DNA of 64,000 bases from Microthyrium microscopicum (Eukaryota; Ascomycota; Dothideomycetes; Microthyriales; Microthyriaceae). The notes beneath the pieces are model-generated. The model worked only from the letters and a program-made list of their open reading frames with translations, made no database searches and had not been told where the DNA came from. This document shows, one piece after another, positions 11,177 through 43,840 of the stretch. The stretch covers positions 1,208,882 through 1,272,881 of the forward strand of contig MU004240.1 in assembly GCA_010405405.1 (NCBI GenBank). Direction: 5' to 3'. The translations under genes were made by a program, and so were the position numbers. The stretch's first letter is position 1, and every line of letters starts with the position of its first letter.

Positions 11177-13653
11177 CCTCGACCTGGCACGAAGTGAGAG
11201 AATGGGTTCCAAGCAGGTTGTGATGAAGTGAAGTTGGAAGGGGTGGCGACCCAGACGGCTGGGTTGACTCACGACAATTTGGAGGGTCACGATGTCATGT
11301 CTCACCCTTTTCACACCGACGTCGAAATGTTGCCTTTGATGTGTTGGTCCAAAATATTGCCACACATCGCATCTTCTTCATCAGCAGCGCCGTTCTCATG
11401 GGAGGATGTGTTTGTAGCAACTGCAAGGAGGCGATGACCAATTCGGTGCGGTCGTCAGGCGCACTGCAATTCCAACTGGCAGGTACGCGAGCAAAGAGTG
11501 AGAGATAAAGCTATTACGATGATCATGAATGAAAAGTTCATCAACCTATCCAAATCGGAGATGATCATGAGGCCAGCAACTTGGGGAAACAGACTGAAAG
11601 CGGGTGACGACTGACAAGGGCTCCGCTGGATTGATACGTAGTAACTGCCACTGACTTGGTCAGCCTCTTCCACCTTACAACGCCTAGGAACACATACTCT
11701 CCTGTACGAATCTGATATGCTGGGATGGGCATGGAGGGTTACTAACGGCATGAATATGGACGAGAGCAATGGCTGGATACTGGCGTTGTTCATGATTCTA
11801 TGAAGACAAGATATGTGTCCAGGGCCGTTGAAGCAGGAAAAACTACTCAGAAATCTGATAGGTGTTGGGAAGGGAATTTATCAATCAAGTATAACTCTCC
11901 ACATCCCACGCTCCTGAGTCCTCATCGTCAATTGTTCTCTGCCACATCACACGCGTCCCAAACTGTCGGGTCGAAGGCGCTGAATGAGCCAGTTTTCCAC
12001 ATGACTTTGGTGTCTTCCATAGAAATATCTGGAAGTATCTTCTTGGCCAGCTGCATGATGTGAGCTTTACGCCTTGATAATTGATGCAGAGTTGGGCTGG
12101 CAGATCCTCCAGCAAAGAATAAAGGCAAGACCAGGTGATTACAACAAATCCTATGCTCGTATGCATTTAGAACCATAAACCTGCAATGTGATTGGAACGG
12201 AACTATGGAATTTATTTTATCCCTGTAGAGCTCATTACTACTCTTTGGACTGCAGTAGATATACCTCTCTATCCAATTATCAAGGGTCACCTCTTGAAAT
12301 ATATGGCACATGCTTAAAGGCAAATCTGTACAGCTACTAGTAGGTAGGTAGGAACGTCAGTTCAAACACGAATGTGCACAGAAGAAACCTACAAGCCACA
12401 ACCCTCATAGAGTTATCGTGTAAGATGGATAACTCGCTTCATTCTGATCCATCCAGGTCCCAGTTGCAGCTTGAGCGCCTGTCAGTTTGTAGAACCTTGT
12501 TACGGTTCCACCTGGTACTTGTATAAAGACTTCGAAGCCAAAAAATCCATCTCGGACCCCCAGGCATGGTCAGCCCCCTACCAGGCTTACTGAAGATGGA
12601 GTAATATTGTGCATCTTATTTACTGGTAACGGGATAGATCGCGTCTATGGAAAGATAAAGATCCCAGATATTTGCTGATATGTCACACTGTAGTAGTTCA
12701 TGTTACTCTAGCACGCGCTTAATTGCAAAGCGGTGCGTTACCATTCTGATTATTAGCCTCCCCAGGTCCTTCTTAACCTGCGGTACAACATCTACTGTAT
12801 CGATTCGGTGAAAGCGCGAAGCGCAGCCTGGTTCAGGGGATGTACCTTTTTCGATGCTGTGCCTCTCAAGAGACGCCACCGATGTCCAGGCACTGCAGCT
12901 TGGAAACCTGACTGGCTGGCAGCGCTACTAGCGTTTGACCGCTGCGCTATTGGAAAATCCGAAAACGCTTTAGCGACCCCGTTTTCGATCAAGGACATAA
13001 AAATAGAAGCGCAGACAGACGCAAAGAGGATTGTTGGTAAGGAGACGAATACGAAATGGCAGGTTGGGTTGTTTGTGGAATGTGGTGAAGGAGTATTTGG
13101 TTCGCGATTCTTTAAAGCTCAAGCATGACCGTTGCGGCTAACATCCGTTTGTAACTTAACCGTACTCTCTGGACTCTTCCAAATTTCAAACCTTACCCAT
13201 TGATTCGATGCGAGTCAGGGTATGTCAATCTGATTTGATCTTATTTGTCGTCCAGGTACAGTTCTGTTCCCCACGCCTTCCTAGTGACGATTACTGACCC
13301 CTGAAACCGTCTTTTGCAACTGATCATCATCGACTTGGAAGTGTTCCAAGGTTTTGTGACCCTTGGAGTAGTAGGTGTAACTCGCTACTGCGAACCTGAC
13401 TGCGCTAGCGACCAAGCTTTGCATTGGCCGCAATTTGTGGGAACCCCGGAGCTTGAGGTGATACCGTTTTTACCCTTTCAGTTGGGACATGCTAGCGCGC
13501 TTTTTTTTGCTGGTGGCGCTCTGAGTTTAGGTAGTGACTCGCTATCGCTTACGGACAAACCTCGCCTAAAAACCCGCGCTAGCATGTCCCAACTGAAAGG
13601 GTAAAAACGGTAGGCATTCACCTTGAATCAAGGATCAGCTAAAACATTCAAGT
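11177..13653. other. gene-free stretch containing a MITE
   Basis: This is 2.5 kb between the methyltransferase and the GDSL esterase. Several open frames of 70-130 codons exist on both strands without motifs. The only structured element is the MITE at 13464-13610, which ends 43 bp before the esterase start codon. The segment near 12.8-13.1 kb is open on both strands but has no recognisable product. Confidence 0.45.
13464..13610. mobile_element. 147-bp MITE with perfect 36-bp terminal inverted repeats and TA target duplication
   Basis: The sequence beginning CCGTTTTTACCCTTTCAGTT at 13464 is repeated exactly in reverse complement at the other end (13575-13610). The perfect match covers 36 bp, or 38 bp with the flanking TA on each side (13462-13463 and 13611-13612). 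The interior (13500-13574) is about 75 bp and has no coding capacity. A TA duplication and long perfect ends fit a non-autonomous element mobilised by a Tc1/mariner- or Fot1/pogo-type transposase. Perfect identity of the two ends argues that it is young. It lies in the promoter or 5' UTR of the GDSL esterase. Confidence 0.9.
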
Positions 13654-15443: not shown

Positions 15444-15654
15444 CCAACCGGGTGACAAAATAGATGGCGCGCTCTTATTAAGTATGATGTCTCCTATTGC
15501 ATCTCTTTAAAGCTACTTCAAATCCCAACAGATTCAGTGAGGAATCGAGTGTTATGCACATTGAAAAGAACATAATATACCTTGGCACAAAACGTAGCAG
15601 ATAGCAGACATCAAACTTGATGGGAGCGTGCCATTTATTTTGTCGCCCAGTTGA
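15444..15654. repeat. decayed MITE-like inverted repeat
   Basis: The left arm, starting at 15444, matches the reverse complement of the right arm, ending at 15654, over roughly 54 bp. The outer part (15444-15474 against 15624-15654) shares GACAAAATA and CGCTC, and its mismatches are nearly all C/T or G/A transitions. The spacer is about 100 bp. The pattern fits a palindromic non-autonomous DNA transposon that has aged by transitions, possibly through RIP. No clear target duplication could be assigned because the arm edges fade. Confidence 0.6.
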
Positions 15655-16080: not shown

Positions 16081-17662
16081 ATGGCTCTCGCTCCAAAGTC
16101 CGAGTCTATTCGTATTTTTGATAAGCTCAAGCAAAAGCCCGCAAACAAGGTTAATCAATCCTCCGAGACCGTTGGGCACCGCAGTACACTAACTAGTCAT
16201 AGATATGCTTCGACTGTGGCGCAAAGAATCCTACCTGGACATCAGTTCCCTTCGGCATCTACCTTTGTCTCGACTGCTCCGCGGTACATCGTAATCTAGG
16301 CGTTCACATTTCCTTTGTGCGCTCAACGAACCTAGATCGTAAGACCTCGGTCAACTTATAACAGCGGTCGTATAACTGATGATTTTCTTAGTTTGGCAAT
16401 GGGAACAGCTTCGAAACTTCAAGGTCGGTGGGAATGAGTCGGCTACAAAATACTTCCAAACACATGGTGGCTCCGCCGCTCTCTCTAGTAAAGACGCCAC
16501 CGTCAAATACACATCCAACGCGGCAAAGAAATATAAAGAGGAGTTACAAAGACGGAGCGCTGTGGACGCCAAAGAATACCCCAACGAAGTTATCCTCGGC
16601 GAATCTGCGGAGGATACCACCAGTGACGCTAACACACCAGCTGGCGAGCCATCAGACGACTTCTTTTCTTCATGGGATAAGCCTACAATCAAGCGCCCTA
16701 GTAATCCACCTTCGAGGACAGGCACTCCTGCTAGCATAGGCCGTACTGCAAGTCCCTTCCTTACCGCTGGCGGCCCTAATGGCAGCCGACCAAAATCTCC
16801 AAATACCGCATCAGAATCCGCGCCTCGACCCACTACAACTTCCTCCGCCATCCGTAAGACGGCCGCTGCCGGCGCTGCGGCCCGCAAACCCAATATCCTC
16901 GGTGCTAAGAAAAATAAGCTGGGCGCAAAGAAAGTAGTGGCCGCGGACGCCGATCTCGACTTTGATGCCGCTGAGCGTAAAGCCAAAGAGGAAGCAGAGC
17001 GCATCGAGAAACTCGGCTACAATCCTGATGATGAAGAAGCGTCCAAGGGTATTAAATCAGCTGCTGCTGTAGAGAAGAACATTGCTAGTCCTACACCAAT
17101 AAGCCCTACACTATCCAGTACAAAGGGTCCCGATCGCGCCAGTGCGGATGTAGAGCGTCTAGGCATGAGTGTGAATCGACTAGGATTTGGTCAAGTGGCG
17201 GCAGCAAAGAAGCCAGCAGCAGCAAAGAAAGCACCAGGCATGGGCTTTGGCTCCACTAGCCGCGCCAAAGAAGGTAAAGAACAAAAGTTCCTTATCTTCA
17301 ATATTCGCTAATTATCTGCAGACGAATCACAGCAATTTGCTCGCCAGAAGTTCGGCACCCAGAAAGGCATCAGCTCCGACGAGTTCTTTGGCCGCGCTGC
17401 TTTTGATCCATCACAACAGGCTGAAGCCAAAGGCCGTCTCCAAGGCTTTGAAGGCGCTACCGCCATCTCAAGCAACGCCTACTTCGGGCGGCCAGAGGAG
17501 GACTTTAACGCCGAAGATTATGGCGACATGGAGACGGCGGCTAAGGATTTCGTGCGTCGATTCGGTCTCACTGCTGGTGAAGATTTAGAAAACTTGACGC
17601 ATTTGATGGGCGAGGGTGCGACAAAGCTGCAGGGAGCTATTCGCAATTACTTGAACGGTTAG
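16081..17662 (+). CDS. GLO3: ADP-ribosylation factor GTPase-activating protein, Glo3/ArfGAP2-3 type
   Basis: Four exons, 16081-16149, 16203-16338, 16392-17273 and 17322-17662, encode 475 aa. The ArfGAP zinc finger is C25-x2-C28-x16-C45-x2-C48, followed by [15 protein letters not shown], which contains the catalytic arginine of the family (R53), and then [15 protein letters not shown] long Ser/Thr/Ala-rich middle follows. The C-terminus contains ISSDEFFGR and YFGRPEED, the kind of conserved repeats seen in Glo3/ArfGAP2-3 proteins (Glo3 motif). The protein stimulates GTP hydrolysis on Arf1 during COPI vesicle formation at the Golgi. The first intron lies just before the zinc finger. Confidence 0.92.
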
Positions 17663-18139
17663 GTTGGTGGGACTATGGTAGATGATGGGATAGGTGCATG
17701 TAATGATGAAGCTGATGAATACAGGCTGTTTTCTGTTTGAATGCAATAGGATGTCTGCACGGCATTAGATATCAGTATTTGTAGTGTTTGTGGGAAACCC
17801 TGTCATTGCATATTAGTATCCGATTGGTGTGAAGTTTGATCCATCTATTCGTTATTTCTACATTGATTCGTAAAGACTACTCGTGGCCGCCATCAGGTCT
17901 TTTTCCTATGCCGAGAAATACACAACCCCATCATATACAACCGCCTCCCAGAGTACACAACAGCAAATAACTTGCTACGCCATAAGAATGTTTAGCTTTG
18001 CTTTGCGGAACGCCAGAGCGGATTTCCGCTGTGCTGTGCCCACAAAGCCATGAGAACAAGGATACCGTAACATCTGCAAAGGAACAAACTCCTAGCCATA
18101 CTCCTTTGGTTGGTGGAAACGACTCGAAATAGACCAATT
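17663..18139. other. convergent 3' intergenic region
   Basis: This is 477 bp between the convergent ArfGAP and cystathionine lyase genes. No gene or repeat is visible. It should contain both 3' UTRs and polyadenylation signals. Confidence 0.5.
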
Positions 18140-22405: not shown

Positions 22406-25153
22406 ATTCTATCGAGTGTGAGTTGCGGAAGGACAAAGGATGGTCCAAATCAGAGACACATTCCAACAGAGTTGAACGTACAGGAGAAAGAGCTTGGGTG
22501 ATGGTTGGTCTGATCGAGAATGGTGAGGCAGAACCCCTTTATGATATGGCTCAGCACTTGCGGGTCAGACTTCAAGTATGAGACTATCGAAGCTGTGAAA
22601 CGGGCCTGAATCTTTTTCAAGATATCCCCAACCTGCAGCTGCCAAATTGCCAAAGACGTAGTCGTTTCTGGCGGAATGAGATGTGGGGCAAAGGCTTTCT
22701 TCACGATCTGTGGATCTGGTATGGGGGAGGGGATAGTCTACTCCAGGTTTTGACGCCACCGACTGAAGGGGGATTTAATCGTCTTGCCTCATAAACCGAT
22801 AGCCTGGACCATGAGCAAGGGGTAGATACTGCGCAGGAACCAACACACTAGGCAGACCAAGGCAGGCAGCAAGAGGAAAGACTAAAAGACTATCACAGGG
22901 CCTTGCAGAGAACTCGTCAAGTTTTATATCGTACAGCACGGTACCTTGCAGTGAACTATTAAACTGGAGGATGGCAGGTAACGTTATTGGGAATGCCGAG
23001 CTACTGTACTGATTGCTCGATATGTCAAATCATTCCTGGAAACATAGACATTGGTGGCTGATACAAAGTCACTCATTACAGCAGAATATTACCACAAAGA
23101 CTGAAATACAGTCCATGCTCAAAGCATGTAAAGCACGCCATGAAGCACACACTCTCAAATGCATGTCATTGAGGCCTGCGTCAACACCAAACGCGATCGA
23201 CCCGCCGTTGATGTACCTAATTCCTTCTCTTTCCTCTATCTTTCAGATTACGAAAAGAACCGTGGGACTACTCAATGGACGACTATCGTTCCAATAAAAT
23301 GCTGTTATCAAGACATTGGGTAGCACAGCCATGTGAAGCTCAGGGTACTCAGCATCCAATGCAGTTGCAGCAGCCTATTGTTTGAACGAGTGAATACTCT
23401 TGCATTTGGTACTCTCCCACGTTGCAGTAGGCCCAGCCGCCGGCTTTCCTCTCCGGATCCCGGACAGGAATGGGGCAAAAACTTCTGGAATACAGAACCA
23501 CTGTCTGTCACTTAAAACTATCCACTGGATTCCAGATTCTTGGTAATTGACAACCTGCCGTCAATTCCGCATTGGGCTAGAGACTTAGCAAACGGCTACT
23601 CGCAGCTGTCAAAGCTGTCAAAGACTTCCAAGCCAATTGTCAAGAGCTATCTGGCACGTTAGCTTCACGAGACTGGACAGTGACCTCGGCCGGTTCAAGT
23701 CCTAGTTCCTTGGCCATTGACCAAACGATAGCTTCTACTATTCTAGAACTATGCTTGAAGATTTTGATCGCGGTGGGAGGCCTTGCCTATGTCGGCCACC
23801 ATAGGTAGTACAACAAGCATTTGCACCTGCATCGTCGCATGGACCTCGAGATGCTCATGGCACTCCAACCACTCTGAACCTTTTGAACCTTTTGAGGGGA
23901 TGGACGGTAAAGGTTAGGTTTCAAAAACTGCTCTGGAATGAGACTGTCAAAGAGCCGTTGTGCGCCCCCATTCCTCTGTATTTTGTGCAAAGACCAGAGC
24001 CGCAAACAGATCTGGTTGCAGTTCTGGGCCCCTAATAATATGAATCTCTAGGCAAGCCACCGGGTGTTTTCAACGCCATGCAGACTTTGAAGAAATCGCG
24101 GCTAATAGCCACAGATTACTGTTAACCGCGTGGGTACAACTGAGAGAGTTGTAGATTTGATACGGGGCCATCTCTTTATCTTGTGCTACCATACGATCTT
24201 GGTTGACGACATCAGAATGAGAAAGTCTTTTTGAGTAGGATCTTTGTGTATCCACAGGCTCACATCTGGAGCACATTTCAATATTGGCCTTGACCAAGTC
24301 ACAAACAGTCTCTGAGCACCTGAATTCTTCATGGCTGTCTGCTCAAGATCGCCATCAAAAACCGCGCTAGCCATGTTCCACGACAACGTCTCTGCGCATT
24401 TTTTAGGCCTTCTGGCATGTGTCGTTCTGCCGTTGTTTTCACGTTCAGGTGTAATATGATCACGGCATCTGATATGCGAGTAAAGTAGGATTGCAGACGT
24501 TGAGCATCTCGTAGTGCAACCAGCAGCCTCTTCTACTCCGTGGGGCCTGGTTTCTCATCACCAGGTTTGAAATAGTTCGCGCTTAAACGCACATTTATTC
24601 CGTTGAAACTTCCGACGCACTTATGGCTTGCAGCTTGGCATCGCTGTATGCTATTTCTTAAGTTAGATTACTCCACACGGCGAACATTCCAACCGACGAC
24701 CGTCCATTATTCTCAGGCAACCAAGTGCGACAATCCAGATTGCGAACGTGGAGAGATAGACACGAAAACTGACGCATCAGAGTACGCCTCTTTCAGTGAT
24801 TGAAGATTGAATTGACTTGCTTAGAAAGGACTTCCACAGCATGCTCTCCACACCACCCTGACATGGGTGAGATATTCTCAGATGGACAAGGTTCACTGAC
24901 ATTTCTTTGTCTGCAGCTCAAGAAAATCCTGGCGCAAACAGGTGTTCGTAGTGAGCTTCCCATGTCACTCACTCAGTTATGACACGTCGAAAACGAAGCA
25001 GTCTTTGTTACCGACACACCAAGATCTTCTTGATCTGCTTCAGTGACTCTTCAGACATATTCTAGTGGCTCATTGTCCATGGCAATGATATAGTTGGAAT
25101 GTTGTGAGCGGCCATTCTTCCTACATTTATCAGCACAGTCCATCAGAAAAACA
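22406..25153. other. gene-free stretch, divergent promoters
   Basis: This is 2.75 kb between the divergent C2H2 gene and the orphan gene at 25154. Several frames of 60-130 codons lie upstream of the C2H2 ATG, but none resembles a protein family. A long 5' leader with upstream ORFs is common for fungal regulators and would fit, but cannot be shown here. Confidence 0.45.
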
Positions 25154-32048: not shown

Positions 32049-33605
32049 CGTGTCGATTGGTGGAGAAAGTTGTTATGGTGTTAATGGTGCTTTCCAAGTT
32101 CTGGTTTCTTTTGTTCTGATCTGGTGAAGCGGCGAGCGTAGTTGAGAAGGAAGTTCGTAGAGTATCGAGCGGAGTCGAGCCCCGTAAGGCAAACAAGAGT
32201 TGTTAAAAAGACGATTTGCTGATGGTGGTTATCAGAGTCGTTCTAATGCTATACATGCCACCAACAACTCCAGGCAGAATCGGGGTTTCGACGGTATAGT
32301 TTTTCAGTGTCTTAGATGATGGCTTTAAGACCCTTTCACCAGGTATTGGATATATTCAAGCCCAGTTTCATCATCCAACCCCAAGCTCTTGTTTCTGCCC
32401 TAGCTGAAAGACTAAAGTTCGATAAGCGGCTGGCAGACGGCAATAGCGGTATAAGATAGATTTGTATTCGATTTTGTTTGTTGGCGATATGAAAACCTGT
32501 CAGTGATGAAGGATGGAGATTCACAATGTCGTATGTCAGTGAGGAGGCCACAATCAGTGACCCGCCCTGGCATTCATTCTTAATTCTCCTCGATTAGCAG
32601 GCCTGTTATCCGCTCCAATACCTGGGATTCAAATGTCAAGTGTTGCGTATGGCGAAGCGCATATAAATTAAATAGGGTAGGTCATTGCGCTATTGCACAC
32701 TGCTGTGAGTGGCTACTTTTGAAACGATTATATTCTGCATGCACGAAACATCTATCCGGCGCAGTGGCAACGCATGCTTTTCGATAGTATTGGCCAGTTA
32801 GACGTGCAGCTGGTCAACGTCAATGTTAGATGAAGGCCAGGCTAGATCGACTAGAATGGTAACCCTGGTACTACTGGCTTGATTCCTTTGATTCCATCTG
32901 GCGAGATATTTCCGGTTGGCTAGCAAGAGGATGGCAAAAAAGGTATATTGAAATGACAGAACCCCAGTTCTTAATAATCTAAAGGGCTCGATTTCTTGGC
33001 TGAGATGACCGCCATGGATGCTGTGCAAATTCTGGCTAATCCGAGCTTCTTTGATTGCTTGTACTCCAAAAATCCATCAGACTTTTGGGGTCGTGATCCA
33101 AAACTATTGACCGCACATGCCACGGTGAAGTCAATTACTACGGGCCGCGTACTCTCTTCCACATGGAATATCCAGGTTGTTCCCTTCCAGTAGAGACCCT
33201 GATGTTCTGTAGTAGTAATCGTCATGGCAAAAACGCCAGCATAGGGATATATTCAAGATTCTACAGTAGAATCCATCCATGGCGAGAAATTTTTAGGTAG
33301 AAAGGCTCCATCCATGCATGATATTATCCAGCACACCTCTTCAAAACACTCGCATAGTTACATTTATTACATCTTTCTGTGCTATCAGTTGTTAGTTTGA
33401 GATTTCTTTCAAAGTCGGGGTGAAATCGCCCAACAACCATCGCATTCGACGGCAACCATATCACGTTTAGAAACACTTTCTATGAGAGCCATCGAATGCA
33501 ACGGTATGAACGGCTGGAACCTTACCTGTCTGGAGGGCTACTTGAGTAATGTCATATTCGAGTCGTAATCGTGTCATTTCACATAATGTTCTCCATAAGA
33601 GGCTA
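32049..33605. other. gene-free stretch with one palindromic repeat copy
   Basis: This is 1.56 kb between the start of the surface-protein gene and the 3' end of SSH4. No supported gene is present. A copy of the dispersed palindrome family lies at 33437-33504. Confidence 0.5.
33437..33504. repeat. dispersed palindrome family, copy A
   Basis: The 24-bp left arm at 33437-33460 (CCATCGCATTCGACGGCAAC and on) matches the reverse complement of 33481-33504 at 18 of 24 positions. The loop contains a smaller palindrome, GTTTAGAAAC. It lies just downstream of the SSH4 stop codon. Its core resembles copies B and C in introns. Confidence 0.7.
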
Positions 33606-35136
33606 TCACCTCCTAGGCAATTGCCTGTTCCGACCCTCAGCTATCGCCGCGGCATAGCTAGGAATGGGATATTCAGGGGCTTGTTCAGAGTCCGGTGAGC
33701 TTTTCGGGCTTTCATAGTCTGGAGGTGCATCGTCGTGTTGATGACCATAAGCACTACTTCCTTCCCCACCGTCCTCGGTATGCGAATCGACGAGACTGAG
33801 TTGAGCTAATGAGATATCGGTTGGAGATCTTTGTGGTCCGGGGCTTTGGGGAGGCCTACAATCCGTTAGTATACGACTCGATGAGATCAAGCTATGAAAC
33901 ATCGCATATCCCATCACATTCGATGGCAACCATAGCACTCGAATAGAAACGCCTTCTATGGTAGTAATCTAATGTGATGGCAGATACGATTTTTTGAATC
34001 TCACCTTGTGCCAAGCCGAAGCTGATTGCTGTTCGTTCGTCCATGGCTATAATGGTAGGGACCAGTCAAGACATGTGGCACGCCGCTGTTGCGATCGTTT
34101 TCTCGGCCACCCTCAAGAAGGATGCTCCCTTGCTCACTTCCGTATGGAGGTGGCGGAGCAAGACTTCCTGATGCAGGTGCCAGGCCCCATTTCTTCACGT
34201 TTGCTTCGATAAAAACAAATCCGAGTTGTCCGAAATTGACATGAACTCTGCAAGGTCCATTTGCGCCAACTGTCGGAAAGAAATTTTGCGTCTTTAGACC
34301 GTGAGCAACGTCGTCAAGCTTCTTGCCATTTCGAGTGAAGAAGATGGTGCCAGATCGAGGTCGATAGCCGATTCCAATAACGTCACCTTGGAGAAATTCT
34401 GGTCCATATGGTGTTGGATTAAATGGTTGATTGTGTCTCCGAGCTCCGTCGCAGCCATAAGCTATCGAGTGTTTGTGCATACCTACAGCCTGATTAGCAC
34501 ATTTGTAAGCAGGAATAATGAGGCTCTTTACCAGGCAGTCGAAAAAGGGGATAGGGTTTTGTTGTCAGTCCAACGCTAACCATAGTTGAATCGGGTTTGT
34601 CGTATATCTTCGCCTCCCAGTAATATACTTCGTTTTGTTTCGGTATAGGAAGGTTGCTTTGTACGGTACATTCAGCGTCAAAGAACTCAATCTCGGTCCG
34701 GCCCTCGACAAAACAGTTTGCAATCTCCAGTTCTGGTTCAAATTCCCATGCTGAAACTCCCTTTTCTTGAATTGCGAGGAACTGCGATAGGGATATGTCT
34801 GTCTGGACGGATTCGGGCGGGTTTGCTTGCACAAATGCTGCAAAATAGTTAGTTGACTGATGGAGGTAAGAGCTAGAATATATAGGTACCCTTGGCTCTG
34901 TTGTATTCCATGCGCTGTATGTCGTCCATGACCTCTAAGGCTTCCGCTTCTTCGCGGAGGAACGCTTGCTCGTCGTCATATTCGCCTGGGCGACCGATCC
35001 GATCCAGAAATATGCGACCAGTGGGAGTGTATTGGAAGAACCATACGGCAACGAGTATTATCGCGACAACTCCAGCAGATCCGAAGGCAGATAACAATCC
35101 AATTAGGATGCCCTTGGCCGTTGAATCGTCAGCCAT
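33606..35136 (-). CDS. SSH4: SPRY-domain membrane adaptor, SSH4/EAR1 type
   Basis: Four exons, 35136-34890, 34837-34532, 34482-34005 and 33855-33606, encode 426 aa. One membrane helix sits near the N-terminus (IGLLSAFGSAGVVAIILVAVW, about residues 12-32). The SPRY domain (about 110-270) carries EVYYWEAKIYD, VSVGLTTKPYP, SIAYGCDGARRHN, GDVIGIGYRPRSGTIFFTRNG and NFFPTVGA. Two PY-type motifs follow, PPPPYGSE and APPDYESP, which bind WW domains of Nedd4/Rsp5 ubiquitin ligase. Yeast Ssh4/Ear1 recruit Rsp5 to cargo on endosome and vacuole membranes. The domain order here is the same, so the function is well supported by family. The third intron (149 bp) is long because it carries a palindromic repeat. 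Confidence 0.9.
33911..33980. repeat. dispersed palindrome family, copy B, inside SSH4 intron 3
   Basis: The arm at 33911-33934 (CCATCACATTCGATGGCAAC and on to CATA) matches the reverse complement of 33957-33980 at 20 of 24 positions, leaving a 22-nt loop. The palindrome occupies nearly half of the intron (34004-33856), whose splice sites and TACTAAC branch lie outside it. Confidence 0.8.
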
Positions 35137-37053
35137 GGTAGTGTTTGCGGGGATATCTAGGGACAAAGCGATGGAGATGGCGGCGCTAATGGAGGGTTGG
35201 AGGGTATGAGGATAGGCGGATGATGGTAGGTGGTCACGTTGGGTGGTGAAATTAAGATGGAAGGAGTAGTGGGTGAGCGGGACCAAAGTTGTGGTCTCAG
35301 GATGCGAGGCGAGGGCCAAAGGGCTATGATGCTGGCTGTTCTGGCGTCAAAATAAGCGACCCCATTTTGAACCATACTCCCATCAGATGCGTTGCCTACC
35401 ATCGCACTTCTCTTTAAAACGAGTGCTCTGGTTCCCATCGAGTGCGTTAAATATTTTTGATATCCGCAGATACAAAACACTCGACCTTCAGTTTGAACAT
35501 TACTCCCTTCAACTACGATATCTACCATAGCACTTCTTGAAGAACGTTGCTTTGGGCTACACCGAGTAAGTTAAATGTGTCTTATCATTGGATAGGATGA
35601 AGATTGAGACTCTTCAGGTATCTACAATCGAAGTTTTCTAGCATCAAAGAAAGTGTTATGTCAGATCGAAGCCTTGGGTATTCGCCACGTCGGCGTCAAC
35701 ATAAGCAAGCAATGTCGGATGCTTTCTCTCAGCACTATGATGTCTACCACATGATGCGCTAATAATCGAGCGCTTTGAGCTCCATCAACTACTTAAAAAG
35801 ACTCTCAAGGCTATGGAATACAATATGAACTCAGAGTTTACCCAATTTTGAAGTGTTACAATCGATATTGTAGGTAGTTAACTAGAGTGTAGCACTTTAA
35901 AGTACTCTGTTACTTGTAACCAAGTGGCTCGCTTATTTTGACGTGCTGGAGGCAGCTTTGAGGTCGATGCATGCGACCTGCCCTGGCCAACGGATGGGTT
36001 GGTTGGTTTGAATGGTTTGGAGAAGCAATATCTCTCAGTCCACCTCCTTCCCGATGCTCATCAATGAGCCATTATGGATGCAGTGTGTGCAAGCAAGAGT
36101 GCTTTATTAGTGGGAGACTTGGAAAGTTGGGATGGAGCAATTCCAAGGCGGGCAAGCATCGCAAGCAACAGAAACAAGGAAGAGTCAAGAGGCAGGCTCA
36201 GACCGCTCAGTGAAACTTGATTCTTGCTTAGCATTACTTTTTGTCCCACTGGCCGAGCCCACGGTTTGTAGGCTTTGTAGCTCACGAGCTTCGTAGTTGT
36301 CATATGAATTTCTATATCATTTTCCTGTTCGTGACTCTCTCCTTCTTTTGTCATGTTGGAACAGCAACCGAAAATCATAGTCGCACCAAAAGGGGGAAAG
36401 GCAACCTGATTGATCAAAGTGCTGTGTCAGAACATGAAACCATTATTTGAAATGGCCATGCCGCCTTTCACGATGCGCTGTTTAGACGCGCTGAAACAAG
36501 ATACAAAATCGTGATCCAGCCATTCCTTACATTGTAACGAAGGCAGCTCTCGTGCCAATACGCCCAACTCGACGTATGCGGAGATGCTTCTAGAAAGTGT
36601 TTTGGTCTCTCAATACGACGAACATCATCATAACGTCAAAAAGATGTCATCTCTTCTGTACTCGACATTATGCCATACTTTTGAGAACCTGGAGCAGAGC
36701 ATTTACTCCAGAGTGCATATCGTACAAGCACAAGGCTCACTGGCTGAGCGAAATGAGCTCTAATGCCCCCTCACTTGAGTATTGTGTAGCCCCCTCCCAG
36801 ATCTTGACCTAACTTCATCACCTTGAAGGTTGTGACCTCAACTGGATGCTTTCACCTGGAACAGTCAACAAATAGAGGCTCAGGGCGTCCCAACACTTTT
36901 TATTTGCCCCTACTCCTCTATCCGCGGCCTCAAACCCCAGCCACTACCTCAACACGCCATTTCCAGTACATCTAAACGATTATCTTACAAACCGCATCCT
37001 CTCCAGAGTCATCCACCAACACTTAGAGAGATTCTTTATAACCGACCGCCATC
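35137..37053. other. intergenic region with clustered palindrome copies, divergent promoters
   Basis: This is 1.9 kb between SSH4 (minus) and TAF13 (plus). A cluster of family repeats fills about 35377-35793. The rest has no supported gene. The 100-200 bp before TAF13 are C- and A-rich, like other fungal promoters. Confidence 0.5.
35377..35793. repeat. dispersed palindrome family, clustered copies F, G and H
   Basis: Copy F starts at 35377 and copy G at 35503, an offset of 126 bp in the same orientation. Both begin CTCCC and run to GCACTTCT over 35 bp. Both are followed by a partial reverse complement (around 35417-35450 and 35540-35575). Copy H, 35731-35793, resembles the second palindrome of copy E at 42656. 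The 35 bp of copy G agree with those at 42557-42591 at 31 positions, three of the four differences being G to A. Confidence 0.75.
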
Positions 37054-37713
37054 ATGCCTGGAGTATGTTCTTTCCGCCATTTCAAGGGCTCTATCGTCGC
37101 AATATCCCATACTAACCACAACCAAAGATGGAACCACGCATGCGCCCACGCATTCCCGGCCCGCAATTCAACACACAAGACCGTACTGTTCTCCACCCAT
37201 CGCCTCCACCTCACAACTAACATCACCTTAGTATCAGTTTTCCTGACCGGCTTTGGCGACGACATGAACCCCCTCCCCTCCACAATCCGCATCCTCGACG
37301 AAATCGCCACCGACTATGTAATAGAAATGTGCCACGAAGCCGAAATGCACGCCCGCTACGCTGGCCGCGCAAAGATAAAAGTTGACGATTTCAATTTCGC
37401 ACTCCGCCACGACTCTGTCAAACTCGGCCGTTCAACGGAGCTGCTGAATACGGACAAGCATTTAAAGGCGCAGCGAAGACAGTTTGAGCTGCCACCGGAA
37501 GCACTTGCGACAAAAAAGGTTATGGATGATGATGCGGGTGGCAAGGGTGCTGGGAAAGGGGGGAAGGGTAGGAAGCGAGCGAGAATAGAAGTGGGGGAAG
37601 ACGATATTGATGTCAATGGAATGGATGATGTGTTGAGCAACGATGGCTCTCAAAAGAGTTCAAATTCGAAGCGGGTCAAGTCTGAGGCCGGTTCGCAGGT
37701 TTCGGCGACCTGA
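37054..37713 (+). CDS. TAF13: TFIID subunit TAF13
   Basis: Three exons, 37054-37062, 37128-37182 and 37232-37713, encode 181 aa. The first coding exon is only 9 bp (Met-Pro-Gly). Both introns have ACTAAC branch sites. The histone fold is [20 protein letters not shown], followed by [20 protein letters not shown] and then [14 protein letters not shown]. The GFGDD start and K-x-DDF-x-FALR end are characteristic of TAF13. A short [18 protein letters not shown] helix follows, and the tail is Gly/Lys-rich with a likely nuclear signal ([10 protein letters not shown]). TAF13 pairs with TAF11 in TFIID and helps recruit TBP to core promoters. Confidence 0.9.
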
Positions 37714-37886
37714 AGTGAGAAAATTGTGCATAGCGTGGATTATGGGCGTTGACGGTTATGATACCCTTTGATATTTGTTTGTGGTGGAAGGACTTGGTAT
37801 TCTCAAGCTTTAATATATACATAACAGGATGCAGAAGTGTGCCTAATTTGTGTGTTATTCCGCCCCTTTGGTATACTGGAAACTCC

Positions 37887-38785
37887 TTACTTCCTATACC
37901 ACATCCGTGTAATCTACCAACACGGTTAGCAAGTAGCCTACACATAGTTTTGCGCAGTGGACTAACCTTTGTATGTCTCATCTTCTTCTGAAGTTGAAAA
38001 ATGCCAAACATGAGCGCCTCACTTGTTGGTGGACAACCCGGTACGTAAACATCCACCGGTACAATTCGATCGCATCCGCGCGTCACTGAATAGCTGTAAT
38101 GGTAATATCCACCACCATTTGCACAGCTACCCATAGAAATCACCCATCGTGGATCTGGCATCTGATCATAAACCTGCCGCAATGCCGGCGCCATCTTGTT
38201 GGTCAGCGTGCCCGCTACAATCATCACGTCCGACTGTCTTGGAGATGCACGGAAAATGATTCCTAGTCTGTCTTGATCGTATCGCGGTGTCGAGAGATGC
38301 ATCATTTCGATAGCACAGCAGGCCAGTCCAAAGGTCATGGGCCAGAGAGAGCCTGTCCTTCGTTAGCTTTTCCACCGTCAGAGCAGAGATATTGGCGGAA
38401 TGTGTACCTTGACGAGCCCAATTGGCGACTTGATCGAGTGTCGTTCTAGAAAGTATTAGTACTAAAGTGATTGAAAAGCACTATGGCATACAAGGCGTAT
38501 TGGATAGCGCTCTTAGGTTGTTCTTGGCTGGGAAGAGGCACTTCGGCGCGGTTTTTCCGTAGAGCGGTCGAGGAACTGGGCTCAATAGCGTGAGCTTCGG
38601 CGTGTTTGTGAGATGTATTTGATATAAAAGCAACGGAAGGTATTCTGAAGGATATGAGGGCTCTGGCGGTCGGTCGAGCTTTATCTTTGGCGTTAGATGT
38701 GTGCTTGTTTGAAGGGGCGATTGGTGGTGGTCTGAGGCTTACCGCGCAGCGCCATTGAGGCTGTTGACCGAACAGGTCCTAGCAT
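37887..38785 (-). CDS. NADH:ubiquinone oxidoreductase PSST/20 kDa subunit (NDUFS7/NuoB)
   Basis: Five exons, 38785-38743, 38684-38492, 38445-38408, 38352-37967 and 37913-37887, encode 228 aa. The first 70 residues are basic with almost no acidic residues, as in mitochondrial presequences. The core holds the four ligands of iron-sulfur cluster N2: the CC pair in [11 protein letters not shown], one Cys in [12 protein letters not shown] and one in [31 protein letters not shown] and [13 protein letters not shown] are also near-invariant. N2 passes electrons to ubiquinone in complex I. Exons 3 (38 bp) and 5 (27 bp, ending RMWYRK) are very small. The gene is convergent with TAF13, 173 bp apart. Confidence 0.96.
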
Positions 38786-39052
38786 CTTGAATATGAATCT
38801 ATGATTTCGGCCTGAGAAGATTGACAAAGAAAAGGAGCGGAGAGTGTGTGTGGCGAACAGCGTTGTGGGGGAGACTTTTGAGATGTCGTTGACGATTGAC
38901 CGCCAAGACTTTGTGCTCGTCAAAGCTCTCTCACCAATAAGCGTCTCTCCAACTCCAATTCCTATGACCCGCGAGATCGGTCATCAAACAGCATTGTTTG
39001 GACTTGCAAAGGTGTCGAATGAATTTATGAAGCCTCTTAAATCATCATAAAA
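38786..39052. promoter_or_regulatory. compact bidirectional promoter (complex I PSST / TRAPPC2L)
   Basis: Only 267 bp separate the two divergent start codons, so the 5' UTRs and promoter elements of both genes must share this space. No motif is called. Confidence 0.5.
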
Positions 39053-39672
39053 ATGGCAAGCAGACTACCCGGCATCGCATGCATTTCAGTCATCGGCAAG
39101 CAGGTCTGTTCACCACTCAGGGGCTTTCAAGGCCCGCAGGCTCACAGTTACATAGAATAATCCTCTACTCATCTCACTATTTCCACAAGAGCAAAGAGAC
39201 CCATTGGAGTTTTCGTTCTTGCTCTCATCATGTCTCGACATTTTCGAGACGCGAGCGCCTTTCAAGACTGCCGACCAAGATTTTGGATTACTCCAAGCAG
39301 TCGACGAGCGGCTTGCCATGTACGGGTGGCAGACCAACACGCGCGTCAAGTTCGTAATTGTTGTTGATATGGCGGCTCGAGTCTCTCGAGATACGAAAGC
39401 GAACGTCGCTGCAGGAATTCGCGATGCCGACTTGAAGCCAGTATGTTGGTCTCATCATATTTGCGGCCATGACATCTAACGACTCGAAGGCATTCCGAGC
39501 TATTCAAGCAGCTTACATCAATTTATTACGAAACCCATTCTACACTCCTGATGAGCCGGTTGCTCCTGGATCAGAGCAGAAGGTTCCCTCTGCTCAGATC
39601 ACCAGCCCAGCCTTTGTCAAAGAGATCAGGAGAATTGCAGAGGTCTGGGTGCCTGGAATTGCCGCCATTTGA
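39053..39672 (+). CDS. TCA17: TRAPP complex subunit, TRAPPC2L/Tca17 (sedlin family)
   Basis: Three exons, 39053-39103, 39156-39440 and 39490-39672, encode 172 aa. The start MASRLPGIACISVIGKQ joins NNPLLISLFP, the family's opening strand with N-x-P-L. YGWQTNTRVKFVIVVDMA matches the longin-fold core of TRAPPC2L, followed by DLKPAFRAIQAAYINLLRNP, whose F-R-x-[IL]-x-x-x-Y-x-x-x-x-x-NPF pattern is strongly conserved in sedlin relatives. The C-terminus has a fungal extension (PGSEQKVPSAQITSPAF). Tca17 helps assemble TRAPP II, the Golgi exchange factor for Ypt/Rab GTPases. Confidence 0.9.
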
Positions 39673-40482
39673 TAACCTCGCATTTCCTTGTTGCAGTCAC
39701 CTTAGAAGTTATCTGGGTTCAGAAGCCGAGCCCTATATTCGCTGATTCAGTAGATGTTCAGGCTCTTGAGCTCACTAATATCAGCTGGCAGCTGATAACA
39801 TTTCGATAGCCTGGAGCTAGTGCCACTTCAGCCTTCAAGTAGCCACTAATCGATTCAATTGCTAGCTGTGTGACAAAAACAAACTTCGGGCAAACAGGAG
39901 AAACATGTTCCGGATACTACAAGACTGCCGGTAGATCTCTGGAAAACACAAAGAAAGCCCACAGGGCTGTCAAAGTCTTCATTCACTGTTGGTCTTAAAT
40001 TCAAGACTACATTGCACCTTACACCGCGAGATCATTTCTGGACACATACAAAGTTATGACGGACCCTTACCGAAAAAAAGGATATGGTATCACTGAATGG
40101 GACCTATAAGAGCTCTTATCCATATTTCGAAGGACGCACACAACACCACATGTCTTGACGTACCATTAATTTGATACCATACCCAACAACTTCGCTGGCT
40201 TCCATATGCTTCGTTCTATTATCGAGTGCTTTCTTTCCCAGAGACGGTCTTGAGTTCCTGCCATTGTATCAAATACGATGGGATATAAATCATCTCTTCT
40301 TTTTCTTTAGTGGCCTCAATGGGAGCTATCGCCGTTGGTGAGAGTGTGGCATTCATTCTGTCGGTCCGATGGATGGGTCTTTAACAGCAAGGACGCCTTG
40401 AAGATGGCGTACCAGCTCTTCTATCTGTGATCTGGCTTGAACTTGATTGCTTTTATAGTCGCTCTTTCCGCCATCTCATCTC
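39673..40482. other. intergenic region
   Basis: This is 810 bp between TRAPPC2L and the amino-acid transporter. There are no supported genes and no clear repeat. It includes the transporter promoter. Confidence 0.45.
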
Positions 40483-42467
40483 ATGGCTCCCACCGCGTCT
40501 TCTCTCCATCAGCAGAATCCTACGATGTCGACTACCCAGGATGACGCAGAGAAGTCTGCCCAGTTTCAAACCCTTCAGCAGAAATCTACAATGTCGACTA
40601 CTCCCGATGACGTCGAGAAATCGAAGCCGGACGCCCCAACGGACGCTTTCGGCGACGAACAGAATGCCGAAATCCAATACAAGACCATGAACTGGTGGCA
40701 TCTGAGCTTGCGTATGTTTCCCGTTCAAAACATATATCTCCCATCGAGTTTGATGGCTACCATAGATCGCGTTTCTGATTGACTGCTATGGTTGCCATCG
40801 ACGGCGATGGGGATTTTACGGTTTCACCACGATAAGGCAATTTAGTCTTTCAGCACGGTAATTTTCTAATTCGGAAACACAGTCATGCTGGCCGAGACAA
40901 TTTCTCTTGGTATCCTGTCTCTTCCCTGGGCAGTATCGAAAATTGGCTTAGTCCCAGGAGTTATACTTATCCTCGTTTTCGGTTTGTTGGCATGCTACAC
41001 TGGTACTGTCTATGGACAGTACAAGCTTGCCAATCCTCAAATTGTCAGCATCGCGGATGCTGGAGGTATTCTTTTCGGTCGTCTAGGCCCTCGTTGGGCT
41101 CGATTTGGACATGAGTTCTTTGGTACTGCCGCCATGCTCGTTCTCGTCTTCATCATGGCTGCTCACGTCATCGGATTTTGCCTTATGATGGACGTCCTTG
41201 CCCCTGGAAAAGCCTGCCTTATTTGGTGGGCAGTACTTGGGACCGTCATTCAGCTGATACTTACATTACCTCGCACGATGAAAGCCACGTCGTATATCGC
41301 CATACTGTCCTCACTTTCAGTCCTCATCTCGGTTATCATTGTGATGAACGATGTCACTCGCAAGAACAAAGGCGACAAGATGGTAGAAGACCCTATCAAT
41401 GGTGCCAGCGGTACTCCGTTCTCGACGGCTTTCACGGCAGTGCTCAATATCTGCATCAGTTACGCTGGACATGTCGCGTATTTCTCATTTGCTGCTGAAC
41501 TCAAAAACCCGAACCATTTTAAATACGCTTTGTGGCTACAGCTCTCGATCGCGACCTTGCTCTATACCGTAGTTGGTGTAAGTTATCCACAATCTCGTCT
41601 GCTAACCGGTAGACAATATGACTGGCGGGTTCCCATTGACTCTGATGGCTCCCACACGGAAGCTTTGCTATCGAGCTCTTTATTTCCCATTCAGGGCGTT
41701 CAGACTGGGACATTCTATCGAATGCAATGGCAAATATAGAACTTGTTGTTCAGCACCGTTCGTGGAAGCCAGCGAAACTGATCGGGGCGCGCGCCTAATT
41801 TTGTCCATCGGTTGACCTGCTTGAAAGTTATATACTAATCAAGTGATTGCAGGGCTTTATATACTACTACGTAGGAAACAACGTCCAGGCACCCGCTCTC
41901 GGTTCGGCATCTCCAAAGGTCAAAAAAATTGCTTATGGAATCGCATCCCTAACCATCATTGTTGCCGGAGTCGTGAACGGGCACGTATTCTGCAAGTACT
42001 TCTACGTACGATTTTTCAGCAAATCCATGCATTCCAAGTCATGGAAGTCGTGGGGTATCTGGGTAAGATTTCTCCTGCCTTATTTGTCCCCGTTCGACTC
42101 CTCCGACTGCTTAAATTGGTACTAATATTAGAAACTTTAGGCCTCAATCGTCACCGGAGCCTGGTTTGTAGCGTGGTTGTTGTCTGAGCTAGTCCCTTCC
42201 TTCCAACATATGCTTGCTTTAGTAAGCGCGCTCTTCAGCGCGTGGTTCACCTACGGGGCAAGTAGTTTCTTCTGGTTCGACATGAACCGCGGAAAGGTCT
42301 TTTCTTCTCCTAGCAAGATCTTCATGGCTCTTTTCAATTTCTTCATCATCGTCCTAGGAGCCATACTTTCCTTTACAGGCATCTATGCAGTAGCAGCGGA
42401 AATGAAGAACGGACTATCAGGCAAGATCTTCAGCTGCACAGTTCCTGGTTCAGGGGATTCGACATAG
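40483..42467 (+). CDS. amino-acid transporter, AAAP/AVT-like family
   Basis: Four exons, 40483-40711, 40883-41577, 41853-42062 and 42141-42467, encode 486 aa. The hydrophilic N-terminus contains an imperfect 17-residue duplication (QQNPTMSTTQDDAEKS and QQKSTMSTTPDDVEKS, 22 residues apart). About eleven membrane helices follow, beginning LMLAETISLGILSLPWAVSK, the AAAP helix-1 signature. VYGQYKLANPQIVSIADAGG and the helix-6 segment ISYAGHVAYFSFAAELKNP come next, then ALGSASPKVKKIAYGIASL. This family of fungal carriers sits in the plasma or vacuolar membrane and moves neutral amino acids by proton coupling; the substrate is not predictable. Introns 1 and 2 (171 and 275 bp) are unusually long for this window, and each carries a palindromic repeat. 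Confidence 0.88.
40741..40810. repeat. dispersed palindrome family, copy C, inside transporter intron 1
   Basis: The arm 40741-40764 (CCATCGAGTTTGATGGCTAC and on to CATA) matches the reverse complement of 40787-40810 at 19 of 24 positions. Spacing and total length (70 bp) equal those of copy B. Confidence 0.8.
41633..41730. repeat. dispersed palindrome family, copy D (decayed), inside transporter intron 2
   Basis: The outer ends CCATTGACTCTGATGG (41633) and the reverse complement of 41716-41730 (CCATTGCATTCGATA) still match at about 11 of 15 positions. The interior is more divergent but keeps GCTATCGAGC, seen also in copies E and H. Confidence 0.55.
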
Positions 42468-43840
42468 CTGAAAGTAGTCGCAACCTCCTATAGTATCTGC
42501 ACCTTGCCTATTCTTATTCTTCTTCACAATTCGCAAGTTTCCATCTACTACAGTGTCTCCCATCGACTGCGATGTCTACCATAGCACTTCTAAATGAGAG
42601 ATCACATTTTCGCAATTTTGACATAAACCTAAGCGAGCCATGCTTAATATTTAGTCCCATCAAGTACGTTGCCTCCCATGTGATGCCCTATTTATCGAGT
42701 GTGATGGGAGCCATCGAATGTAGAAAAAAATCGCAAGATTCTGGAAGGCGATGTGGAATTGAAGCTTTTGACGATCTTGTTCAATCTTGGTCGTTTAGTA
42801 ATACGAAGTGCGCAGATTTTGTCCCGCGGTTTATTCCTTCTTGGGTCGTGATATAAATTCTCCATTTGCATATAGGCGTTTCCGCAAACTTAATTATCCG
42901 TCTCACGGAAAATACCCTAAGCTTTCGCCACGAACCGTTGGATCTACTCTACGTAAACATGCCAGCAACTATACATAGATGCGCGGCCTACAGTGTTCAA
43001 AAATCATTCCCTAAGAGTCCAGGAAAAATCGCGAAAATGGGAGAAGAACACGGATAATTCGACCTTCAACGAAGCGAGTAGAGTAAGCACCTCTATGTAG
43101 GTCTTGACTCTTGGAAATACTCAATACGTACCTTGGACATGCACTTTGCGTTAGGTGGTCATAATATTACGATCATTGGCCCTGACGGGGATCTACGGCG
43201 CGGGTAATTGGTGGGTAAATATATTAAATGTTAGATCCGGGCTTCATTACTGCTCTCAAGAACTTCCGAGTTTGCGCTGCGTGTTTATGATTATATTGAT
43301 ATTTCCGTAGCCGTGGAGGCCGACACTAATACAACCTGGACTGCCGATAAGTTCATTGGTTGGCTTGATTCCATTTCGAAGTATTCTAGAAAATGCCCCT
43401 TGATCTCACTGGTGTATGATCTTCGCACCTACCTCAACTTCGTCGTTACCCAGCATTCCATCCTCATCCTTTGCCAATTCTCTTTTCGAAGCTTCCAAAT
43501 CACGCCGGACGGTGAAGAGAGCTATTCTCGACCTTCAGGTTACAACGTCGTGCACTTAAGCCCAGTTCCATTTATCTTGCCTTCTCTGGATCAGCATGCG
43601 AAACCGGGGCGCCGACATCTCTCAGATCTCAGGAACCTACAACAGGACTTCGGTATCAGCCTAGTCGTAGATTTTCAGAAATCCTGAGCCTCTTGCAGAG
43701 TGAGCGACAACAAGAGTCATCTCCAAACTATCGGCCTGGGGCATTTCTTGCTGAATCTTACGCCGCGCCCGAGACCAGCCTCGGCGATATTCAAGCCAGT
43801 TGTAGGAAATAGGCCGGGACTTGCCGATGCGTCACATATC
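42468..43840. other. intergenic region with palindrome copies
   Basis: This is 1.37 kb between the transporter and the QutR-like gene. Palindrome copies occupy 42557-42723. A 125-codon frame at 43313-43687 lies upstream of the QutR-like ATG. It has no recognisable motif, and I could not join it convincingly to the downstream frame, but the true 5' end of that gene may lie here. Confidence 0.45.
42557..42723. repeat. dispersed palindrome family, copies E1 and E2
   Basis: E1 (42557-42591) carries the best-preserved core, CTCCCATCGACTGCGATGTC followed by TACCATAGCACTTCT. E2 (42656-42723) is a second palindrome: GCCTCCCATGTGATG on the left pairs with its approximate reverse complement around 42700-42720. 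Confidence 0.7.

Follow-up and report, generated by a model that had tools for sequence, protein, structure and literature searches.

Within a 64-kb stretch of DNA from the ascomycete Microthyrium microscopicum (contig MU004240.1, positions 1,208,882 to 1,272,881; hereafter the window, to which all counts and searches refer), we describe a family of short inverted-repeat elements, about ten diverged copies of which lie around two genes, one for a SPRY-domain protein and one for an amino-acid transporter. Profile and alignment comparisons show that the family is real. It consists of two subfamilies, namely copies A, B and F, which form hairpins and lie in predicted introns, and copies C, D, E, H and I, which do neither. 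We lean towards the view that this is an old non-autonomous family of the miniature inverted-repeat transposable element (MITE) or fold-back type, some copies of which would have enlarged introns or become introns themselves.

Results

The copies, lettered A to J, were first picked by eye, and the profile statistics therefore confirm the family rather than discover it. In BLAST comparisons against the window, B and F match on opposite strands over 89 nt at 79% identity (E 2e-15), A and F over 84 nt at 73% (E 8e-8), C and D over 106 columns at 72% (E 4e-7) and D and H over 35 nt at 89% (E 4e-7); the agreement between positions 35503 and 42557 at 31 of 35 bases (89%), noted in the preliminary description of this DNA, was confirmed. 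Each subfamily also predicts members of the other. A profile built from A, B and F only recovers C, I and H (E 2.4e-5, 3.6e-4 and 1.4e-3), with D, E, G and J not significant (E 1.3 to 2.9), and a profile built from C, D, E, H and I only recovers F, B, J and A (E 1.1e-9, 2.2e-7, 0.003 and 0.008) and not G (E 3.7); among the controls, one reversed and eight shuffled windows, the best match was at E 0.36 for both profiles. When each copy was scored with a model from which it had been left out, A reached 30.9 bits, B 49.8, C 58.2, D 28.6, E 30.0, F 54.6, H 25.2 and I 43.6, so that these eight core copies score 25-58 bits, compared with at most 12.2 bits for the top match in the 60 shuffled windows run per model. 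Chance similarity was rejected on the basis of the cross-predicting profiles and these leave-one-out scores. Pairwise identity among seven aligned copies is 40-68%, and 66-68% among A, B and F themselves. In 19 of 21 copy pairs transversions are more frequent than transitions; given that there is no excess of transitions, we see no sign of repeat-induced point mutation (RIP), and a RIP-mutated repeat is thus unsupported.

All nine places listed in the preliminary description hold family sequence, one of them, at 41633-41730 (copy G), only marginally. With a model not trained on it, G scores 12.4 bits over 41631-41704, which none of 60 shuffles reaches, and we take it to be a marginal, degenerate member. 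The list has to be extended by a tenth copy, J (40169-40252, plus strand), upstream of the transporter gene, which a model built without it scores at 19.5 bits, the best of 60 shuffles reaching 10.0. The family had also been described as absent from the rest of the window, and an eight-copy profile indeed found no further site of at least 8 bits beyond the family copies, G, J and a possible distant member, Z, at 15445-15653 (209 bp, plus strand). Z has 53-base inverted ends (83%; inverted repeat E 4e-10) and an inner part that resembles the family (21 bases at 90% to 40738-40758); its family score is 10.0 bits, with one of 60 shuffles as good, and its membership is doubtful. ACAC near both of its ends is no better than chance. 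When the window was searched with a covariance model, J and Z matched only weakly (E 1.3 and E 1.9, respectively) and G was not among the matches up to E 10; a further match, at 17578-17671 (E 0.03), was counted as false (coding-like by eye, no fold, z -0.5). The 16-base core proposed as common to the family does recur, with four occurrences at three or fewer mismatches versus 0.39 expected, but it is exact in only two copies and within one mismatch in a third, and one of the four occurrences (59478, three mismatches) lies outside the family.

Four of the ten copies lie in predicted introns, all in sense orientation, and this placement of B, F, G and possibly A, which is new relative to the preliminary description, is predicted from sequence signals and from open spliced reading frames. 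In the SPRY-domain gene model on the minus strand, excision of 34889-34838, 34531-34483 and 34004-33856 yields an open frame of 426 aa in which the SPRY domain is complete, and the last of these coding introns (149 nt) holds B (33911-33980, minus strand; profile match 33886-34000). In the transporter gene model on the plus strand, excision of 40712-40882, 41578-41852 and 42063-42140 yields an open 486-aa protein, whose match to Aa_trans spans 2-408 of 410; its first coding intron (171 nt) holds F (40741-40810, plus strand; profile match 40724-40835) and its second (275 nt) holds G (41631-41730, plus strand). Copy A (33437-33504, minus strand; profile match 33412-33515) sits in a putative intron of 144 nt (33382-33525, minus strand) with a GTAAGG donor, a CTAAC branch site and a TAG acceptor, which lies 3' of the stop codon of the SPRY-domain gene and would be at most an intron of the 3' untranslated region. 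The long BLAST match of B and F is one between predicted coding introns of unrelated genes, to which the putative intron of A and the marginal G may be added. The coding exons of the two gene models contain no part of any of the ten copies. The predicted introns without a copy in these genes measure 52, 49 and 78 nt, and subtraction of the approximately 100-110 nt of homologous sequence from the introns of A, B and F leaves, as a matter of arithmetic, about 40-60 nt.

Donor, branch and acceptor signals, when scanned for, flank A, B, F and G in the sense direction; the remaining six copies have none, and no copy has them in antisense. Of 3000 random placements, 3.2% carry such signals; the donor pattern of the scan had been written after the four introns had been seen. 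Such a distribution is what might be expected if members of the A/B/F subfamily spread as introns, every copy supplying a 5' splice site and a hairpin and giving rise to a new intron at its landing site, and if the non-intronic copies are failed or decayed insertions. This introner-like origin, which the preliminary description had listed among its options, would account for orientation, position and structure alike, the introns of A, B and F being structured and 144-171 nt long as opposed to 49-78 nt for the copy-free ones. It would also agree with the structure or symmetry that excerpts of PMC8469720 report for fungal introner-like elements, and with an extract of PMC4457414 in which introns above the regular 50-55 bp are taken as possible degenerate introners. 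The six of ten copies outside predicted introns count against it.

The extent of homology within the introns bears on the same question. The BLAST match of F and B extends 17-18 nt beyond the hairpin towards the donor and starts 7-13 nt into the intron, and that of F and A extends 22 nt beyond the hairpin on the side away from the donor. With the hairpin excluded, the segment between donor and hairpin is similar in F and B (P 0.002) and more weakly so in F and A (P 0.03), and B and A are not detectably alike in it; on the 3' side of the hairpin F and A are similar (P 0.01) and the other two pairs are not. In A, B and F the hairpin is separated from the start of the intron by 21-29 nt and from the end by 55-72 nt. 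Intron positions 7-9 are TTC in all three, which is suggestive, without being proof, of an element that brings its own donor; the donor hexamers differ. The last 25 nt of the introns are unshared among A, B and F (F-B P 0.20, F-A 0.36, B-A 0.22) and between F and G (P 0.39), and those of the G intron resemble B (P 0.008) and A (P 0.011), a result that favours the introner side, although it may reflect only a shared branch-site signal. As judged from these matches, the element common to A, B and F starts close to the donor and does not reach the branch site. Since homology did not extend over the whole intron, we did not file the family as an introner-like element; for A, B and F, which are intronic, in sense, hairpin-forming and, in the F-B and F-A comparisons, homologous near the donor, such an origin is plausible, but the unshared 3' ends, the differing donor hexamers and the unlikeness of A and B between donor and hairpin, together with the many non-intronic copies, make it somewhat unlikely overall.

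Strong folds are confined to A, B and F, whose hairpins have z scores of -7.5, -5.0 and -4.8 as RNA, with none of 200 shuffles per sequence folding as well, and whose whole or near-whole introns fold at z -3.4 to -4.2. Their consensus forms a continuous hairpin of -53.9 kcal/mol, in which an outer stem of 17 pairs is followed by an inner one of 7. The statement that most copies fold into hairpins therefore did not survive, as C, D, E, G, H, I and J have no strong fold (z -1.5 to -0.3, with C and G at -1.5). The consensus of C, D, E and I does not form a hairpin of the A/B/F type, and the subfamily of C, D, E, H and I has lost complementarity in the outer right arm. That strong hairpins occur only in copies within predicted introns might point to a structured RNA or cis-regulatory element that selection has retained in transcripts of both genes. 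We consider this very improbable, as covariation was not clearly above shuffles (five measures were reached by 35-224 of 500, and in a further test by 115-447 of 500), pairing of the arms within one copy barely exceeded that between copies (permutation P 0.18; 0.05 with G-U pairs disregarded), seven of the ten copies lack the fold, and a search of 33000-43200 against Rfam gave no match up to E 1. Because the within-copy pairing advantage is weak and covariation is near that of shuffles, the hairpins may have been kept by descent rather than by selection.

The copies outside introns include C (35343-35463), D (35466-35590), which is in tandem with C, and E (35692-35812), all intergenic and on the plus strand, as well as H (42530-42600, left arm only) and I (42616-42733), which lie on the plus strand 3' of the stop codon of the transporter gene. 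The C-D-E stretch (35345-35943, 599 bp) has at its bounds an 18-base inverted repeat (35345-35362 and 35926-35943) that matches at 17 of 18 bases (E 0.12) and of which a 17-base motif has three matches in the window versus 0.18 expected; the stretch may be one composite element. Overall, seven of eight units, counted post hoc in a set that includes the weak Z, lie within 9.2 kb, which was equalled in 0.036% of 200000 random placements. The clustering is thus real, and with the tandem arrangement of C and D and the lack of target duplications at the elements tested it would suit the local amplification envisaged in the preliminary description, in which an initial palindrome is copied nearby by break repair or template switching, with no transposase and at this locus only. 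Yet copies lie on both strands, the two genes that carry them are separated by unrelated, copy-free genes (with TFIID-18kDa and Oxidored_q6 matches), a possible member lies at 15.4 kb, and the units were counted after the data had been seen; we hold local amplification to be quite unlikely.

The window reads as fungal DNA, given the short introns of the two modelled genes and its Pfam matches, which include TFIID-18kDa, the NADH dehydrogenase 20 kDa subunit (Oxidored_q6), type I 3-dehydroquinase, SPRY and Aa_trans. The SPRY-domain gene presumably resembles the SSH4 type, and the transporter gene what we take to be the mtr type of Neurospora. No paralogue of either gene was found within the window, and a second transporter gene near 19.4 kb, suspected from a 27-base match, was ruled out on closer check. 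Two direct repeats (40506-40622) of 51 nt, 80% alike and 66 nt apart, occur where the transporter gene encodes the N terminus of its protein. Among viral contigs, an 18-base pattern gave a single match (L001), over which the family profile extends only 20 nt and which was taken as chance, and a 17-base pattern gave none. The sequence family was not found in print, as searched by words and not by sequence. A separate element of 151 bp at 13462-13612, unlike the hairpin family, has 45-base inverted ends that are 96% complementary, with TA at its termini (TACCG...CGGTA), and is a good candidate for a TA-duplicating MITE, with a partial relative at 24349-24380 (84%, E 0.035).

Discussion

Under the reading that we favour by a modest preference, that of an old MITE-like family, non-coding inverted-repeat elements of about 105-125 bp would have been moved by a transposase encoded elsewhere, would have landed repeatedly around the two genes and would then have diverged. 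The intronic copies, which are in sense orientation, downstream of the 5' splice site and upstream of the branch site, might leave the intron spliceable as the hairpin loops out the added length. Copies outside introns are to be expected of a MITE, and the family shares with MITEs and fold-back elements that it is short, non-coding, built of inverted repeats and dispersed in non-coding DNA. Of what the preliminary description offered as a MITE family, a dispersed inverted-repeat family too short for a mobility protein is supported.

Several observations weigh against a MITE-like origin. At none of A, B, C, D, F and the C-E unit was a target duplication found, in agreement with the preliminary description; 100 to 498 of 500 random positions had flank matches as good as the best ones there, of 2-4 bases. 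The ends of the element are not sharply defined, clear termini of the kind seen in MITEs and fold-back elements were not found, and left ends mostly did not match inverted right ends, with one of 24 comparisons at P 0.047 and two more below 0.1. A shared outer terminal motif on both arms, seen by eye, was dropped after these comparisons. In addition, a freely moving element would not usually be so clustered. Great age may explain both the absent target duplications and the blurred ends.

The family has points in common with two groups of fungal introns. As in the introner-like elements of Dothideomycetes (Fulvia, Dothistroma, Zymoseptoria), related introns with strong predicted structure occur in unrelated genes, and no target duplication is reported there or was detected here. 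Those introners, as far as an extract of PMC4457414 describes them, number hundreds of near-identical copies, in contrast to three intronic copies at 66-68% identity and a degenerate fourth in the present case, where, moreover, A, B and F have no common 3' end and have relatives outside introns. Introns with inverted repeats are described in excerpts of PMC8469720 and PMC12403724. Among them, the symmetrical sister stwintrons and cropped sister introns of Hypoxylaceae/Xylariaceae resemble our copies, according to the excerpts of PMC8469720, in having long internal inverted repeats, in functioning on the coding strand (the only strand on which the Hypoxylon symmetrical introns are functional), in losing symmetry as copies diverge and in having no target duplication; their symmetry is terminal, at the intron ends, whereas the hairpin of A, B and F is internal. 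In the same excerpts fungal introner-like elements are structured or symmetrical and insert seamlessly, and in a part of PMC9860276 the ascomycete introner families are outliers without inverted repeats or target duplications. As regards fungal intron gain, reverse splicing of RNA is favoured in the portions of PMC9860276 and PMC8469720 that address it, and most introners elsewhere resemble DNA transposons.

The origin of new introns is an open question, and a family with intronic hairpins and intergenic relatives could help to decide it if a search across the genome were to reveal which of the two arose first. Should the present one be only an old MITE that has fallen into existing introns, it would be ordinary. 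The alternative, which we consider unlikely, is that an inverted-repeat element of an ascomycete occurs both as free intergenic copies and as introns, with a 5' splice site and hairpin of its own and with the branch and 3' splice sites of the host. If this were true, an element found in both intergenic and intronic form would provide a visible bridge between MITEs and the introner-like elements of fungi.

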